64,000 bases of DNA from Candidatus Alcyoniella australis (GTDB lineage Bacteria; Lernaellota; Lernaellaia; JAVCCG01; Alcyoniellaceae): contig JAVCCG010000085.1 in the NCBI GenBank assembly GCA_030765605.1, positions 62,001 through 126,000 on the forward strand, given 5' to 3'. The position numbers and the translations under genes were made by a program. Of this stretch, positions 21,176-33,446 are shown piece after piece. Numbering within the stretch: the first letter of the stretch is position 1; each line of letters opens with the position of its first letter. A model generated the notes under the pieces. The model worked only from the letters and a program-made list of their open reading frames with translations. It searched no databases and was not told the origin of the DNA.

Positions 21176-22003
21176 ATGGACGATGTTGACGACAAGACGC
21201 CGCAGGGCGAGCCCCGGACCGACGAGTCGTTCATCCCGCTGCCGGGCCTCAGCGAACAGGACCGCGAGACGATCAGCGTTCACCTCGAGGTTTTCGAGGG
21301 CCCGCTGGACCTGCTGCTGCACCTGATCCGTAAAAACGAATACGACATCTTCGACATCCCGATCGCCATCATCACCGAGCAATTCCTGGCCGGCGTCGAG
21401 CTGCTCAAGCAGCTCAACCTGTCGGTGGCCGGCGAGTTCCTGGTGATGTCGGCCACGCTGATGAAGATCAAGTCCAAGATGCTGCTGCCGCCCAGCGAGT
21501 TCGACGAGGAAGACGAAGAGCTGGACCCGCGGGCCGAGCTGGTTCGACAGCTGCTGGAGTACCAACGCTACAAGGACGCCGCCGGGCAGTTAGTCGAACT
21601 CCCGCGCCTGGGGGTCGACGTGTTCGCCCGCAAATGGCCCAGCGACGAGCTGGATGGAATCGACCACGAGGAGATCCTCGAGCTTAACCTCTACGATCTG
21701 GTCGAGGCTTTCGGCGAGCTGCTGCGCTCGCTGCCCGATCAGACGCAGCACACGATCATCGGCGAGAGCTTCAAGGTCGCCGACAAGATGAACCAGATCC
21801 TCGACGCGATCCGGGGGCACGAGAGTCTGCTGCTGCGCGAGATGCTGCGCGACCAACCGACGCGCTCGGAGGTCATCGCGGTCTTCTTGGCGCTGCTCGA
21901 ACTGGTCAAGCGCTCGCTGATTCGACTGTTTCAGGCGGGAACCCTGGGGACGATCCGCATCTTCCCCAATTTGATCGAGGGCCGAGAGGAAGACGATGAT
22001 TGA
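21176..22003 (+). CDS. scpA: segregation and condensation protein A (kleisin)
   Basis: 275 residues. The conserved start of ScpA is visible (VHLEVFEGPLDLLLHLI, near residue 40), as is the C-terminal winged helix that contacts the SMC head. It bridges the Smc dimer and recruits ScpB during chromosome segregation. It is preceded by a longer than usual acidic N-terminus (about 35 residues). It overlaps scpB by eight bases, so the two subunits are probably made in step. The smc gene is not in the window. Confidence 0.93.
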   Translation: MDDVDDKTPQGEPRTDESFIPLPGLSEQDRETISVHLEVFEGPLDLLLHLIRKNEYDIFDIPIAIITEQFLAGVELLKQLNLSVAGEFLVMSATLMKIKSKMLLPPSEFDEEDEELDPRAELVRQLLEYQRYKDAAGQLVELPRLGVDVFARKWPSDELDGIDHEEILELNLYDLVEAFGELLRSLPDQTQHTIIGESFKVADKMNQILDAIRGHESLLLREMLRDQPTRSEVIAVFLALLELVKRSLIRLFQAGTLGTIRIFPNLIEGREEDDD

Positions 22004-22961
22004 CCGCGCGCGCATCAAATCGATTCTGGAGAGCCTGGTGTTCATCTCCGAGGAGCCGCTGAGCTCAGGACGGATGGCGCGGATCGTCGAGGGCGTGGGG
22101 AAAAAGCAGGTCGAGGAGCTGCTCGACGAGCTGACCGCCGAATACCGCGACTCCGAGCGCGGGATCGTGCTGCAACAGGTGGCCGACGGCTACCAATTCC
22201 GCACCCCCGAGGCCAACGCCGAATGGGTGCGCCAGCTGGTCAAATCCAAGCCGCCGCGACTGACTCGGGCGATGATCGAAACCCTGGCGATCGTTGCCTA
22301 CAACCAGCCGTTCACCTCTCCCGAGATCGAGGCGGTGCGCGGTGTGGACTGCTCCAGCGCGCTTAAAAGTCTGCTCGATCGCGGGCTGATTAAAATCCTC
22401 GGTCGCAAGGACACGCCGGGCAAGCCGCTGCTCTACGGCACCACCGTCGCATTTCTCGAGGTCTTCGGCCTGCCCGACCTGGGCCATTTGCCGAGCCTGA
22501 AAGAGATCGAGGAGCTGCTGGCCGACACCGGCGATCGTGAGCTGATCACCAAGTCCGGGGTCAAGAGCGAGGAACTCGAGCAGCTGACAAAGCAGGCCAA
22601 GCAGGCGCGCGCCGAGCTCAGCGCGATGGCCAAGCAGGACCCGGATGCGTTGGACTACGAGGCCGCGCAGCCCGAACACGAGCAAGAGATTGCGCAGCAG
22701 TCCGACAACGATGACGACCACGAGCCAGACGATGACGAGTCAGACGACGACGAGTCAGACGACGACGAGTCAGACGACGACGAGTCAGACGACGACGAGT
22801 CAGACGATGATGAGTCAGACGATGATGAGCACGGCGACGACGACGAGATCGAAGAAGACGATGTGTCCGACGACGAGGATGACGACGACGAGGACATTGA
22901 CGATTTCCACGACGACAATCAGTCCGACGCCGATCCTGAGGATCAGGATCCACAGGGCTGA
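21996..22961 (+). CDS. scpB: segregation and condensation protein B with long acidic repeat tail
   Basis: 321 residues. The first 200 or so match ScpB, two winged-helix domains (KSILESLVFISEEPLS; TLAIVAYNQPFTSPEIEAVRG; GRKDTPGKPLLYGTT). ScpB dimerises and binds ScpA in the condensin complex. The remaining 85 or so residues are almost only Asp, Glu and Ser, including seven tandem S-D-D-D-E units, far beyond the usual ScpB length. The tail is encoded by 15-bp tandem repeats. An acidic tail could contact basic proteins or mimic DNA; this is inference. Confidence 0.93.
   Translation: MIDRARIKSILESLVFISEEPLSSGRMARIVEGVGKKQVEELLDELTAEYRDSERGIVLQQVADGYQFRTPEANAEWVRQLVKSKPPRLTRAMIETLAIVAYNQPFTSPEIEAVRGVDCSSALKSLLDRGLIKILGRKDTPGKPLLYGTTVAFLEVFGLPDLGHLPSLKEIEELLADTGDRELITKSGVKSEELEQLTKQAKQARAELSAMAKQDPDALDYEAAQPEHEQEIAQQSDNDDDHEPDDDESDDDESDDDESDDDESDDDESDDDESDDDEHGDDDEIEEDDVSDDEDDDDEDIDDFHDDNQSDADPEDQDPQG
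22728..22832 (+). repeat. 15-bp tandem repeat array within scpB
   Basis: Seven 15-bp units encoding D-D-D-E-S. Four adjacent copies (22743-22802) are identical (GACGACGACGAGTCA); the outer three differ by synonymous GAC/GAT changes, except the last, which ends in CAC. Recent in-frame expansion is likely. Confidence 0.95.
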
Positions 22962-28030: not shown

Positions 28031-28059
28031 TTGACCGAAAAACTTCCAATTTCTATACT
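28031..28059 (+). promoter_or_regulatory. promoter of the porin-cytochrome unit
   Basis: TTGACC (28031-28036), an exact 17-base spacer and TATACT (28054-28059). RNA would start near 28066, about 63 bases before the GTG start. Confidence 0.65.
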
Positions 28060-28128
28060 AACAAGAATTTTCTTAATGACATGTTCCTGTCTAGCCAGCA
28101 CAGATACTGATAATTGAGAGGACTTTTC

Positions 28129-29424
28129 GTGCTCCGAAAAACACTCCTCAGCTGCTGTATTCTCGTCCTGCTGCTCGGTTCAACGGCATACTCCGCTGAC
28201 ATCTACGTGCGCTCGATCACCATGCCGTACTACTTCCAGACTTATTACGCGGACGAGAACACCGACCGGCTACCGGTCTACCAATTCCTCAGCACCAGCC
28301 TGGCCGATTTCGGCGCCCAGGGACTTAGCATCCACGCCTCGGGCTGGGGCCGAATCGAATCGATGGATCGGCCCAATTTCGAGCCCTGGGAACAAGTCGA
28401 TCAGAACGACGAGGAATTGCCGATAGGCGACGGCGACCTGACCTACGGCTTCCTGCAGTACGAAGGGCCCGAGAACTTGTTCACGATCAGGGCCGGCCGG
28501 ATGATGCTCGGGCCCTCGCTGATCGTCGAACCGTTCGACGGCGGTAGCTTCGTCGGCCGCTTCCCGATCGGGCTCAACCTGACCTGGTTCGGCGGCGCGC
28601 CGGTGGTCAGCTCGATCGGTGATCGCGAGGGCGACTGGATCTTCGGCGGGCGACTGGATTACGCCCTTGATCCGTTCTTCGAGTTCGCCGCGACGTACAC
28701 CAAGAAGATCGAAGAGCGCACCATCGACAACGAGATCGCCGGCCTGCAGCTCAACTCCACGCCGCTGCCCTGGTTCGCCTTCTCGGGCCACATCTATTTC
28801 GATACGCGGATGGCCGAGGTCTACGACGGCGAGAGCATGGCCGTGTTCCGCCCACTGGGCGGATCCAAGATCATCGCGCTCTACGAGCGGGTGACGCCCT
28901 CGACGCTGTTGGGCAAGGCCAGCCCGCTCTCCGTCTTCACCATGGACGCCTACCACCACGGTCAGCTGGCCACGACCTTCGTGTTTATGACGCATCTCGA
29001 GGCTCGCGCCGAGTACGGCATTGTGGCGTTCGAGGACAAAGCGCTGGGCGACCCCTCGCACCGCGCCTCGGGTGGCCTGGCAGTAATCTACGGCAAGCAG
29101 TTGGCCAACAGCCTCGGGATTCAGTACGTCTACCTCAACGATCCGCAGCGCGGCTACAACCAAGCGCGCATGTATTACCGCCAGGGCTTCGCCAAGCGGC
29201 TGTTCTGCACCGCCGACGTGGCCGGCACGCTGCTGGACGAGGAGATCTACGAACAAGACGTATCGCTGAGCGCCACCGGGACCTTCGGCATCGACATCAC
29301 CGATTATTTCCAAATCGTCGGATCGACGACCTACGTTCAAAATCCGTTCTACGAAGATGAAGTGCGGGGGCTGCTGAAGCTCTCCTTCAACGTAGACAAA
29401 ACCTTCTGGAGTTCCGACCAATGA
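28129..29424 (+). CDS. outer-membrane beta-barrel protein, candidate cytochrome conduit porin
   Basis: 431 residues from GTG 28129, with GAGAGGA six bases upstream; a TTG at 28114 overlaps that SD. The signal peptide is at 1-22 (ending AYSA). The mature protein is a run of alternating-polarity beta strands rich in Tyr, Phe, Gly and Thr, with no soluble enzyme motif, as expected for a barrel of roughly 16-20 strands. Its stop overlaps the start of a 13-haem cytochrome (ATGA). By analogy with MtrB- and OmbB-type systems it could sheath or hold cytochromes across the outer membrane, although it is shorter than MtrB. It may also be a simple porin. Confidence 0.7.
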   Translation: MLRKTLLSCCILVLLLGSTAYSADIYVRSITMPYYFQTYYADENTDRLPVYQFLSTSLADFGAQGLSIHASGWGRIESMDRPNFEPWEQVDQNDEELPIGDGDLTYGFLQYEGPENLFTIRAGRMMLGPSLIVEPFDGGSFVGRFPIGLNLTWFGGAPVVSSIGDREGDWIFGGRLDYALDPFFEFAATYTKKIEERTIDNEIAGLQLNSTPLPWFAFSGHIYFDTRMAEVYDGESMAVFRPLGGSKIIALYERVTPSTLLGKASPLSVFTMDAYHHGQLATTFVFMTHLEARAEYGIVAFEDKALGDPSHRASGGLAVIYGKQLANSLGIQYVYLNDPQRGYNQARMYYRQGFAKRLFCTADVAGTLLDEEIYEQDVSLSATGTFGIDITDYFQIVGSTTYVQNPFYEDEVRGLLKLSFNVDKTFWSSDQ

Positions 29425-30479
29425 GCAGCAGCCCACGCTCTAAAGCGACGCTGATCGTCGTTGTTGTGCTGTGCCTGCTGGTGTCGGGGATTGCCCTGGG
29501 GCAGCATCGGCGCGGCAAACGCGCCTCCGACATCCGCATCGTGCATCAGAAGCATATCGATCGGAACATGGCCTGCCTGGACTGCCACGCCAACATCCGC
29601 GAGCACACCGGCGCCAACCGGATCTATCCGCCCAAGTCGATTTGCGACAGTTGCCACGACGTGAAGGACCGCGAACAATGCGGGCTGTGTCACGTCGAGA
29701 TCGCGCGCGTCGAGGACTCGGTGGGTTACGGCGACGAGATCCGGCCGATTGTCTTCTCCCACGCCGATCACCCGCAGACAATGGACGACTGCGAGGACTG
29801 CCACGGCTACGGCGGCAGGCTCGATCCGAGCGTGCTCGACCACGAGGACTGTAACGCCTGCCACAGCGAGGCGATCGAGAACCTGCAGTGCGCGCTTTGC
29901 CACCGCACCTTCCAGTCGATCGGCCTGAGCAAGCTGTCCAACTTCTCGCACAAAGACAACTTCCTCACCGACCATCCCGGATTCGCCAGGCTGACCACAC
30001 GCACCTGCTCGCAGTGCCACCATCTCGACTTCTGTACCGACTGCCACAACAAACGCGAGGGCGTGTTGCGCTCATCGGTCAAGTTCCCCGAACTGGTGCG
30101 CCGCAGCTTCATCCATCGCGGCGACTGGATCACGACCCACGCAGCCGAGACCGGCTTCCAGCAGGAGCGCTGCCTGAAGTGCCACACGATCAACACCTGT
30201 CAGAGCTGCCACGCCCGCAACGGCAAGGGGCCGCAGTCCGAGGTCAAGCTGATGACCCATCCCAAGGGCTGGATCAATCCCAACAGCTCTAAATTCCACG
30301 GGCCGGAGGCCAGGCGCCGCATCATCGAGTGCGCCTCGTGCCACGACAGGGGCCCGGGCAGCAACTGCATCCGTTGCCACTCGCTGCCCCAGAACAATCC
30401 GCATCCCTCGGGCTGGACGACCGCTCCGGGAATTGAGCGCGGGAAAGACCGTCCATGCTCGTTCTGCCACAAGGATTGA
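29421..30479 (+). CDS. exported 13-haem cytochrome c
   Basis: 352 residues. A hydrophobic signal segment (about 9-27, VVVVLCLLVSGIALG) directs export. I count thirteen CXXCH haem-binding motifs: CLDCH, CDSCH, CGLCH, CEDCH, CNACH, CALCH, CSQCH, CTDCH, CLKCH, CQSCH, CASCH, CIRCH and CSFCH. Extra histidines precede many of them and can be axial ligands (bis-His), as in c7/NrfB-like chains. About one haem per 25 residues indicates an electron wire rather than an enzyme. It is translationally coupled to the upstream barrel and eight bases before the tetrahaem lipoprotein. Confidence 0.92.
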   Translation: MSSSPRSKATLIVVVVLCLLVSGIALGQHRRGKRASDIRIVHQKHIDRNMACLDCHANIREHTGANRIYPPKSICDSCHDVKDREQCGLCHVEIARVEDSVGYGDEIRPIVFSHADHPQTMDDCEDCHGYGGRLDPSVLDHEDCNACHSEAIENLQCALCHRTFQSIGLSKLSNFSHKDNFLTDHPGFARLTTRTCSQCHHLDFCTDCHNKREGVLRSSVKFPELVRRSFIHRGDWITTHAAETGFQQERCLKCHTINTCQSCHARNGKGPQSEVKLMTHPKGWINPNSSKFHGPEARRRIIECASCHDRGPGSNCIRCHSLPQNNPHPSGWTTAPGIERGKDRPCSFCHKD

Positions 30480-30487
30480 GGCTGACA

Positions 30488-30862
30488 ATGGCTGGTATAA
30501 AATCGTCTATCGTCTGGTCGCTGCTGATCGCGCTGGCGCTGGCATCGCTGGTCTCGGGATGCGCGGAGCCCAATCCGGACGCGCCCACCGGCAGCGAGGA
30601 CCAGATCTACAGCGGCCCGCAAGCGCCGGCCTGGCATCATCCCGAATCTCAATGCACCGAGTGCCACGAGGATATGGTCTGCACCGGCTGGAATTCCCCG
30701 AATCAGTGCGTCTTGTGCCACGAGGTTCAGCCCGGTCCGGAGATTCCGACGATCACCCACGGCGAGCGGCCGGACTACTCCTGCATCGAGCAGGGATGTC
30801 ACTACAACGTGCACGGCGGTGTACACTCCGACGATCAGTGTTTGGCCTGCCACTCGTATTGA
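30488..30862 (+). CDS. tetrahaem cytochrome c lipoprotein
   Basis: 124 residues from ATG 30488, with GAGG six bases upstream. The signal sequence ends in the lipobox LVSGC (Cys about 24), so the protein is lipid-anchored. Haem motifs are CTECH, CVLCH, CLACH and the unusual CIEQGCH, a CX4CH site of the type found in Desulfovibrio cytochrome c3. A further Cys (MVCTGW) has no His partner. Placed after the barrel and the 13-haem protein, it may be the outer-surface or periplasm-facing end of an electron conduit; which leaflet it occupies cannot be told from sequence. Confidence 0.88.
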   Translation: MAGIKSSIVWSLLIALALASLVSGCAEPNPDAPTGSEDQIYSGPQAPAWHHPESQCTECHEDMVCTGWNSPNQCVLCHEVQPGPEIPTITHGERPDYSCIEQGCHYNVHGGVHSDDQCLACHSY

Positions 30863-30923: not shown

Positions 30924-33446
30924 ATGTCCGAAGTGAGTACTGAACAGCCCCCCAAGACCTCATCCGACTCCAAGGGATCCTCGCTGATTCGCAACGAACA
31001 GTTTCTCGAGGCGACCCTCGAGTTCGTCCAGGCCATCAGCGGTACGATCGTCAACGTCAACCGCTACCCGCCGGGCAGCGCGGCGATCTCAATGGCCATC
31101 GAACGCGCAATTAAATCTTTGAACGAGGCCTTCGAGTTCTCTGCCACGATCAGCCTCGGACAAGCCGACGACCTGTTGCTGATCGACGACACCGTGCTCG
31201 GTGAGAAAATCCAAAAACGAGGATACGTGCAGGGGTTCGTCAAGAACCTCGTGGGCCGCCAAGTCCAGAGCATCTCGTTCGACAAGGGGTTGGACGAAGA
31301 GGAGCTGGTCCAGTTCCTGCGTGTGCTGGGAACGCGCAGGGAAGATCTCGATAAAGAGGGCACGCTGCACGAGGTGATGAACAAGCGCGGCATCACCAAA
31401 ATCAAGGTCGACGAAAAGATCTACATCGCCTTAGCCAAGGACCAGGCCGTCGCCAACAAGAGCGACCTGGAGCGGCTGGCCTCCTCCGGCGGCATGAACA
31501 TCAGCGCTGAGGGCGTGTCCAGCGGTATGTTCATCAAATTCCTGATGAGCAAACTGCCGATAGACGATCTGCAGAACATCGACTACAGCGACAGACAGAT
31601 CAACGAGATGCGCGAGGAGGACTTCCCCAAGGTCGCCCGCGCCATCGCAATGGCCATCGAGGGCCAGACGCTAAGTGTGGGCCGGGGCGGCGACGAGCAC
31701 GAGGACGGCGAAGTCGCCCAAGGGGCGCGGATCAAGAATTTGACCGACACGATCGTCAAAGTCAGTCAGACGATCGCCAAGTTCCCCCAGCCTGAAGTGC
31801 AGACCAAGCTGATCGATAACTTCCTCAAGGTCGTGGTCAACTTCCAGCCGCATACGCTGACCCGCGTGCTGGTCGACACCATCGATGAGGACGTCAGTAA
31901 AATCGGAATTAAGAAACGGATCATCGAGCACATCGGCCCGGACAAGCGCGCCGACATCCTCGAGGTGATTCAGGAGAACTACACCTCGATCATCGGCGGC
32001 ATCGCCCCGGATGACTTCGAGGTCAAACGCGAGGTGGTGCTTGAAAGCGCCAGGGTGCTGGCCGCGCTGCTCGACATCAGCGCCAAGCTCGGCGAGACCC
32101 AGATGCTTGATCGCGGAAAAAAGATGATCCAGACCGCCGAGGTGCTGGTGCGCGAAATGGCCAAACCCGAGGGGCTGCTGTTGATCAAGCTCAAACGTCT
32201 GATCACCCAGCCGCCCGCGGAACTGATCAAGCCCGAGGTCTCTAAACACCTACCCGGGCTGATGGACCGCGTGATCTCGCACAATCGTTACGACGTGGCC
32301 AAGCGCCTGCTCGAACACGTCGGCGACAACCTCAAAGTCGCGTCGGCCGACGACCGTATTACGGCCGCGCGTGTGCTCAGCGCCGGATTGGTCAAGCTGG
32401 TCCGCTCGCAAAAGCCACTGAGCATCGACGACGGTCTGAAGATGCTGACCTCCGGAATCGCCAAAGAGCAGCAGCCCGAGGTGCGGCTGGTCGAGTTGCA
32501 GGAACTCGGCGGACTGATCGACGAGGCGATCGATGCCCGGGCATTCGGTTCCCTCACAAAATTAATCGATTATCTTCCGGCGCTGAAAAAGGCGCTGAAC
32601 GGATCGGACGAGCAGGCGGCCAAGGCACTGGCCACGGTCGACGCCAAGATCTCGTCCAACCGCGAGCTTGTCATGCAGCTGATCGAGAGCTACGGCGGAA
32701 ATAACGACGCGCAATCGCGGACCGCCGAAAAGGCAATCATGTCCATCGATCGCGCCAAGCTAGGATCGCAACTGCTCGACCTGCTACGCGACAGCGACGA
32801 CCGGCGCGCGCGCAAGAAATGCCTGACGCTGCTTTCCAAGATGGCCCGTCAGCTCCAGAACGAGCTGCTCTCGCGAGCCGCGAACCCGGACAACCAATGG
32901 TACTTCGACCGCAACCTGGCGCTGCTGCTGGGCGACGCGGGAACGCCGCAGGCGATCGCAGCCATCGACAAGCTGCTGGACCATAATGAGGAACGCGTAC
33001 GTAAAGCCTGCGTACAGTCGTTGATCAAGATTAACAGTGGGCAGGCCAACGATCTGCTGATCAAGTCGATCGACGATTCGAGTTCAATAATCAGGCGTCA
33101 GGTCGTCAACCATTTCCGCACCAACTCCAGCCGCAAGGCGGTTGACAGGCTGATCGCACTAATCAAAGACAGCGCGGTCGTCTACAGCCAGCCCCATGAG
33201 GATTTAGTGCTGGACGTGTGCCAGGCGCTGGGCAAGATCGGCGACCCACGGGCGATCGAACCGCTGGCCGAATGCCTCAAGCCCGACGGGCTGTTCGCGC
33301 GCAATAAAAAGAGCGACAACGTGATGGTCGCCGCTGCCAACGCCCTGGGAGATATCAAGAACGACGAGGCACAGACCGTGCTGGCCAAGAACAAGCGGCA
33401 CCGCAAGTCGGCCGTGGCCCAGGCAATCAAGCAAATTTTAAGCTAA
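30924..33446 (+). CDS. large cytoplasmic HEAT-repeat protein
   Basis: 840 residues without signal peptide or membrane helix. Residues 20-180 form a conserved-looking helical start (NRYPPGSAAISMAIERA; GLDEEELVQFLRVLG). Much of the rest is helical, and from about 640 on there are recognisable HEAT/PBS-lyase-like repeats (AIAAIDKLLDHNEERVRKA; IDDSSSIIRRQVVNHF; LGKIGDPRAIEPLAECL). Such alpha-solenoids bind partner proteins. It begins 61 bases after the cytochrome lipoprotein, with no clear SD for its ATG, and may or may not belong to that operon. Function unknown. Confidence 0.75.
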   Translation: MSEVSTEQPPKTSSDSKGSSLIRNEQFLEATLEFVQAISGTIVNVNRYPPGSAAISMAIERAIKSLNEAFEFSATISLGQADDLLLIDDTVLGEKIQKRGYVQGFVKNLVGRQVQSISFDKGLDEEELVQFLRVLGTRREDLDKEGTLHEVMNKRGITKIKVDEKIYIALAKDQAVANKSDLERLASSGGMNISAEGVSSGMFIKFLMSKLPIDDLQNIDYSDRQINEMREEDFPKVARAIAMAIEGQTLSVGRGGDEHEDGEVAQGARIKNLTDTIVKVSQTIAKFPQPEVQTKLIDNFLKVVVNFQPHTLTRVLVDTIDEDVSKIGIKKRIIEHIGPDKRADILEVIQENYTSIIGGIAPDDFEVKREVVLESARVLAALLDISAKLGETQMLDRGKKMIQTAEVLVREMAKPEGLLLIKLKRLITQPPAELIKPEVSKHLPGLMDRVISHNRYDVAKRLLEHVGDNLKVASADDRITAARVLSAGLVKLVRSQKPLSIDDGLKMLTSGIAKEQQPEVRLVELQELGGLIDEAIDARAFGSLTKLIDYLPALKKALNGSDEQAAKALATVDAKISSNRELVMQLIESYGGNNDAQSRTAEKAIMSIDRAKLGSQLLDLLRDSDDRRARKKCLTLLSKMARQLQNELLSRAANPDNQWYFDRNLALLLGDAGTPQAIAAIDKLLDHNEERVRKACVQSLIKINSGQANDLLIKSIDDSSSIIRRQVVNHFRTNSSRKAVDRLIALIKDSAVVYSQPHEDLVLDVCQALGKIGDPRAIEPLAECLKPDGLFARNKKSDNVMVAAANALGDIKNDEAQTVLAKNKRHRKSAVAQAIKQILS

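Follow-up and report, generated by a model that had tools for sequence, protein, structure and literature searches.

Three tightly packed genes on the forward strand of the window (the whole 64,000-nucleotide stretch that was analysed) very probably encode a Pcc-type outer-membrane electron conduit, distantly homologous to the OmbB–OmaB–OmcB complex of Geobacter. The unit (28031–30862; Table 1) comprises, in order, a porin barrel, a cytochrome with 13 CXXCH motifs and a small haem lipoprotein. The barrel gene starts with a GTG at 28129 and encodes a signal-peptide-like N-terminus; its TGA stop codon (29422–29424) is overlapped by the ATG of the cytochrome (29421), and the ATG of the lipoprotein (30488) lies 8 bases past the cytochrome stop. 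In all of these particulars, including the 431-residue length of the barrel, the initial annotation was correct. It had also credited the unit with a strong promoter: TTGACC-17-TATACT is indeed the best of four matches in the 6.3 kb region, against 1.7 expected from shuffled sequences, but as a consensus match alone it is better described as a plausible promoter of the three genes. Within the 64 kb window, the cytochrome and the lipoprotein are the only ORFs of at least 100 residues that contain CXXCH. The flanks look ordinary, with Kdo transferase-like and MsbA-like ORFs (named by sequence reading) between 33738 and 38593, and no rhodanese gene was recognised beside the conduit genes when the ORF list was read by eye. 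A HEAT-repeat protein (30924–33446) begins 61 bases 3' of the lipoprotein stop, such that co-transcription is possible. Elsewhere in the window, an ORF that reads as ScpB-like (21996–22961) has a long acidic C-terminal tail (22655–22961) with a repeated DDDES unit.

Table 1. Coordinates of the features of the three-gene unit, numbered from the first letter of the window
Feature	Position	Strand	Remarks
Candidate sigma-70-like promoter, TTGACC-17-TATACT	28031..28059	+	10/12 consensus matches; consensus match only
Shine-Dalgarno-like GAGAGGA	28116..28122	+	6 bases 5' of the barrel GTG; read from sequence
Outer-membrane beta-barrel, 431 aa, Omb-like, no plug	28129..29424	+	Signal peptide, residues ~1-23; ~22 predicted strands
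13-CXXCH c-type cytochrome, 352 aa, presumed barrel-inserted wire	29421..30479	+	Type I-like signal peptide
N-terminal five-haem extension, residues 42-148, c7-like	29544..29864	+	Pfam Cytochrome_C7 at residues 41-91
C-terminal 8-haem core, residues 150-350, haems 6-13, OmaB-like	29868..30470	+	hhalign, BLASTP, 8-haem relative
Small multihaem lipoprotein, 124 aa, presumed surface cap/terminal relay	30488..30862	+	Lipobox LVSG↓C; 3 CXXCH + 1 CX4CH
Atypical haem motif CIEQGCH (CX4CH)	30782..30802	+	Read from the lipoprotein translation

The AlphaFold2 model of the barrel (pLDDT 89.2, pTM 0.80) has ~22 long strands surrounding an empty lumen without a plug, and if a shear of 24 is assumed, the standard barrel formula puts the radius of the backbone near 20 Å. 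The initial annotation had conceded that a pore too small to hold a cytochrome, or a known enzyme domain within the barrel, would tell against a conduit; by the formula, the predicted pore is wide enough, and its predicted strand count falls within the range of 18–22 given for Pcc porins (PMC4245776). When superposed with VIA-align, the model matches receptor barrels of 22 strands, whose lumen, unlike its own, contains a plug domain, and ushers of 24 strands, with Z scores of up to 20.9; the likeness is evidence of shape rather than of function. Fold searches of the PDB returned the same generic receptor barrels and ushers, and MtrB was not among the matches listed, which excludes nothing. At the sequence level, the barrel has no match in Pfam or NCBIfam and no convincing one in the PDB; since these three collections gave no enzyme domain, that reading was dropped. 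Its affinities emerge from profile comparisons, which argue for homology to the OmbB-like barrels: Omb-like and window-class barrels align with an hhalign score of 99.2% (E = 6 × 10−20, 285 columns), and the barrel profile matches Omb-like loci at E values of about 10−54 to 10−62, whereas a pairwise BLASTP comparison of the window barrel with an Omb-like barrel is not significant (E = 0.20). Here, the Omb/Oma references are Geobacteraceae loci recognised by their architecture, not by named G. sulfurreducens sequences, and the profiles were seeded with cytochrome-adjacent barrels, which may bias them towards that subset.

The cytochrome appears to be composed of two parts. Its last eight haems are, on sequence evidence, homologous to OmaB-like 8-haem proteins: this core matches the Oma-like cytochromes in hhalign (99.8%, E = 1.3 × 10−30, columns 176–351) and an Oma-like protein in BLASTP (E = 6 × 10−16), and an 8-haem relative in genome G020 aligns with residues 148–350 of the window protein. 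The 8-haem relatives lack the N-terminal five-haem extension, and residues 99–162 match a cytochrome c7 in the PDB (E = 9 × 10−6). The only family models that the whole protein matches are generic ones, for c7 and MtrC domains, and its PDB matches are small c7 proteins; against the decahem_SO model, it scores far under the cut-off (E = 0.43), and it has 13 haems, not the 10 of the MtrA/DmsE type. Across 25 cytochrome sequences, 11 histidines outside the motifs are at least 92% conserved, which fits bis-His haems, as these would need such residues. The structure model is poor (pLDDT 58.8), as expected for a protein predicted alone and without its haems, and none of our claims rest upon it.

The third protein had been annotated as a tetrahaem lipoprotein. 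The lipobox and the four motifs are present, but only three of the latter are CXXCH, the other being CIEQGCH, and the protein would bind four haems only if this CX4CH site is functional; a plain four-CXXCH protein can thus be rejected. Pcc clusters usually include a lipoprotein cytochrome of the outer membrane, in which atypical CX3-15CH motifs are often present (Shi et al. 2014, PMC4245776); the window lipoprotein agrees with this, its location at the cell surface being presumed. With 124 residues, it falls well short of the size expected of a terminal reductase in the outer membrane. Most members of the window's own class retain a third gene encoding a multihaem lipoprotein, and the window protein shares with these relatives a start of the form CxxPNP(D/E)AP or similar. 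Separately, the lipoproteins of two other loci alternate CX2CH and CX3CH motifs, with unusually regular atypical sites (13 + 9 in L036, 6181–7935, reverse strand; 8 + 4 in L034, 6319–7374, reverse strand).

The association between barrel and cytochrome is widely conserved, which bears on the co-occurrence that the initial annotation had looked for in relatives. Both genes are present in five of the six genomes of the same class; thus, their pairing is not due to chance. Among 145 genomes, the barrel is found in 27 and the cytochrome in 29, with both co-located in ~20 (odds ratio 35, Fisher p = 3 × 10−12). Moreover, when the barrel profile is the sole query, a multihaem ORF lies downstream of nearly every full-length match that has room for one, across many phyla, with its first haem motif ~110–250 bases past the barrel stop. 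The few exceptions are truncated contigs, a weak, unrelated barrel (L125) and L119, although the barrel of the last is actually followed by a 14-haem ORF (L142). Further weak matches in L182–L184 were rejected as unrelated barrels without haem neighbours. The named relatives are uncultured Deltaproteobacteria, Myxococcales and Geobacteraceae, together with strains of Myxococcus and Pyxidicoccus. In the latter two genera (L063–L066 and L069), generally known as aerobic predators, a divergent barrel adjoins a 13-haem cytochrome of the window's family. Some members of the window's class also encode a c3-type cytochrome, along with a NapC-type protein that has 17 CXXCH (L036). In one draft genome (L038, 8223–9489, reverse strand; identical to L044), the barrel sequence is divided between two overlapping frames, through either a frameshift or an assembly error.

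A maximum-likelihood tree of the barrels separates, with strong support, a half that contains the Omb barrels from one that contains the types with 13 and with five haems; barrels that go with cytochromes of like haem count cluster strongly on the tree, in which some branches are long. The Geobacteraceae loci matched by the barrel profile comprise a ~404-residue barrel, an exported cytochrome with 8 or 9 haems and a multihaem lipoprotein, in sets that are tandemly repeated in L172 and L177; the same layout has been published for ombB-omaB-omcB and for Gmet0908-0913 (PMC4245776, PMC11389400). Both the OmbB–OmaB–OmcB and the OmbC–OmaC–OmcC clusters of Geobacter have the gene order of the window, with barrels of ~400–430 residues, and the homology would extend over the first two-thirds of the barrel and the 8-haem core. 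The window differs in having five extra N-terminal haems (13 as opposed to 8 in Oma), in its third protein, which has 124 residues, 3 + 1 haem motifs and a different N-terminal motif in comparison with the 12-haem OmcB, in the lack of tandem duplication and in the placement of its barrel in a separate, strongly supported clade. The barrels of the pentahaem-type Geobacteraceae clusters (L067, L070, L134, L176 and L178) lie in the same, strongly supported half of the tree as that of the window. These clusters are arranged like ExtEFG, a likeness drawn from published gene order and haem counts rather than from sequence, and, as in the window, consist of barrel, cytochrome and multihaem lipoprotein, the last with atypical motifs at several loci; however, their cytochrome is a 5-haem protein with a lipobox, and their lipoprotein has ~6–15 haems. 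ExtHIJKL, compared by description, features a rhodanese-like lipoprotein, the ExtI barrel and the pentahaem selenoprotein ExtKL; the window has 13 haems in one ORF. The two-gene clusters of Anaeromyxobacter and Kuenenia and Ignavibacterium IALB_1838, again compared by description, pair a barrel with a 12–14-haem cytochrome of 338–400 residues; unlike the window, the former two lack a lipoprotein gene (PMC4245776).

Shewanella MtrAB(C) embodies the same principle, a barrel sleeve around a multihaem wire with a lipoprotein outside, but MtrB has 26 strands and MtrA 10 haems, as against ~22 and 13 in the window; the first four strands of MtrB make no contact with MtrA (PMC7198977). The window barrel does not match the NCBIfam MtrB/PioB model TIGR03509, and a whole-genome search with an MtrB-family model found none, a result shared by the control. 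As these searches gave no family match, Mtr-type membership was set aside as unlikely.

Gene order, haem motifs, homology, conserved adjacency and the predicted barrel fold are what the analysis shows, and the logic that the initial annotation saw in a barrel, a multihaem protein and a lipoprotein is supported by the size of the predicted pore, the co-occurrence of the genes and the lack of a recognisable enzyme domain. From here on, we infer how the complex would work: where the cytochrome sits and which way it faces, where the lipoprotein stands, in which direction electrons flow and to what substrate. The ~22-strand plugless barrel would act as an insulating sleeve, with the 8-haem OmaB-like core in its lumen as the wire, while the c7-like five-haem part would project into the periplasm, taking electrons from inner-membrane quinol oxidases via periplasmic carriers. 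The lipid-anchored 4-haem protein would cap the outer face and hand the electrons to minerals, humics or other cells. Transfer through the Geobacter complex has been observed in liposomes, for which all three subunits are required (PMC4589669); for the window complex, the same mechanism is presumed, as the reading with most support. Two candidate quinol oxidases are encoded in the same genome, namely, a multihaem protein with a C-terminal b561-type membrane domain in a CbcL-like layout (L126) and a multihaem protein of the NapC/NrfH type (L129). The genome also encodes a second candidate surface cytochrome, a 6-CXXCH lipoprotein with the Geobacter CxxxxCH/CxxCH domain (TIGR01904; L128, 4615–5457, reverse strand).

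The sequence anatomy is neutral as to direction, and the same complex might run inwards, supplying periplasmic carriers with electrons from an outside source, for example an electrode, a partner cell or Fe(II). Conduits built from a porin and a large cytochrome serve Fe(II) oxidation in the Mto and Pio systems, and some Pcc clusters are without a surface reductase (PMC4245776); nevertheless, we consider inward flow unlikely, given that the candidate quinol oxidases are of the outward-respiring kind and that the nearest characterised relatives reduce Fe(III) (PMC4589669). More radically, the barrel could simply let solutes diffuse through, as ordinary porins do, or transport them, and the cytochromes would work with it on the periplasmic side (in metalloid reduction, for instance) without any transmembrane wire. 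ExtI of Geobacter, which is encoded amid cytochrome genes and yet is a proposed selenite importer (PMC5877670), offers a precedent, and generic barrels are the best Foldseek matches of the model. Such a role is highly improbable, however: the barrel–cytochrome pairing is fixed over many phyla, the two proteins appear homologous to the Omb and Oma subunits of a complex that passes electrons across liposomes (PMC4589669), and an unfilled 22-strand pore without a plug would leak heavily.

A closer question, within the conduit reading, is whether the lipoprotein is needed at all, as the 13-haem protein may span the barrel and suffice by itself, in the manner of MtrAB, leaving the lipoprotein as an accessory. 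This is quite possible, although we would lean against it. With 13 haems in 352 residues, the cytochrome resembles the 10-haem MtrA (333 residues) in size, two-gene Pcc clusters with 12–14-haem cytochromes are known (PMC4245776), and no adjoining multihaem lipoprotein was seen at several loci encoding 13-haem relatives (L039, L047 and L048); against this, the third gene is kept by most of the window's own class.

The suggestion of the initial annotation that this may be a new type of conduit, on the basis of a short barrel and differing haem counts, is not supported. Pcc clusters comprise 2–9 genes, with porins of 18–22 strands and periplasmic cytochromes of 5–14 haems (Shi et al. 2014, PMC4245776), and their outer-membrane cytochromes carry atypical motifs; Pcc-type barrels of the Geobacter family are, likewise, ~400 residues long (404 and 408 in L172). 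The window lies within every one of the published ranges (strands, haems, gene number and atypical motifs), the 13 CXXCH motifs of its exported cytochrome included. Its barrel length and haem counts are therefore ordinary, its proteins are related to Omb/Oma-like ones, and haem count and barrel length alone are poor grounds for calling a conduit new. The new points are the lineage, a small, uncultured class of bacteria to which Geobacter-type electron conduits are now extended; the 8 + 5-haem layout, in which an OmaB-like core carries a five-haem N-terminal extension; the unusually small surface lipoprotein; the well-supported barrel clade separate from the Omb/Oma branch; and the placement of the window, Omb-like and pentahaem-type barrels in one superfamily, in which a ~22-strand sleeve is combined with cytochromes whose haems number from 5 to about 14. 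Searches of the open-access literature brought up no paper on this particular cluster.

Tentatively, and with some doubt, we suggest that the window represents a separate, widespread branch of 13-haem conduits, found in many uncultured lineages and in Myxococcota, in which a c7-like electron collector with five haems is joined to an inserted OmaB-like core in one fusion protein. If so, a single polypeptide would both collect periplasmic electrons and conduct them across the membrane, the lipoprotein being reduced to a tiny cap, and the collector, if real, would provide a simple, testable case of conduit–periplasm wiring. A separate observation concerns a Deltaproteobacteria bin, in which a 701-residue ORF with 30 CXXCH motifs lies just past a 13-haem conduit cytochrome (L059, 9023–11128, forward strand).
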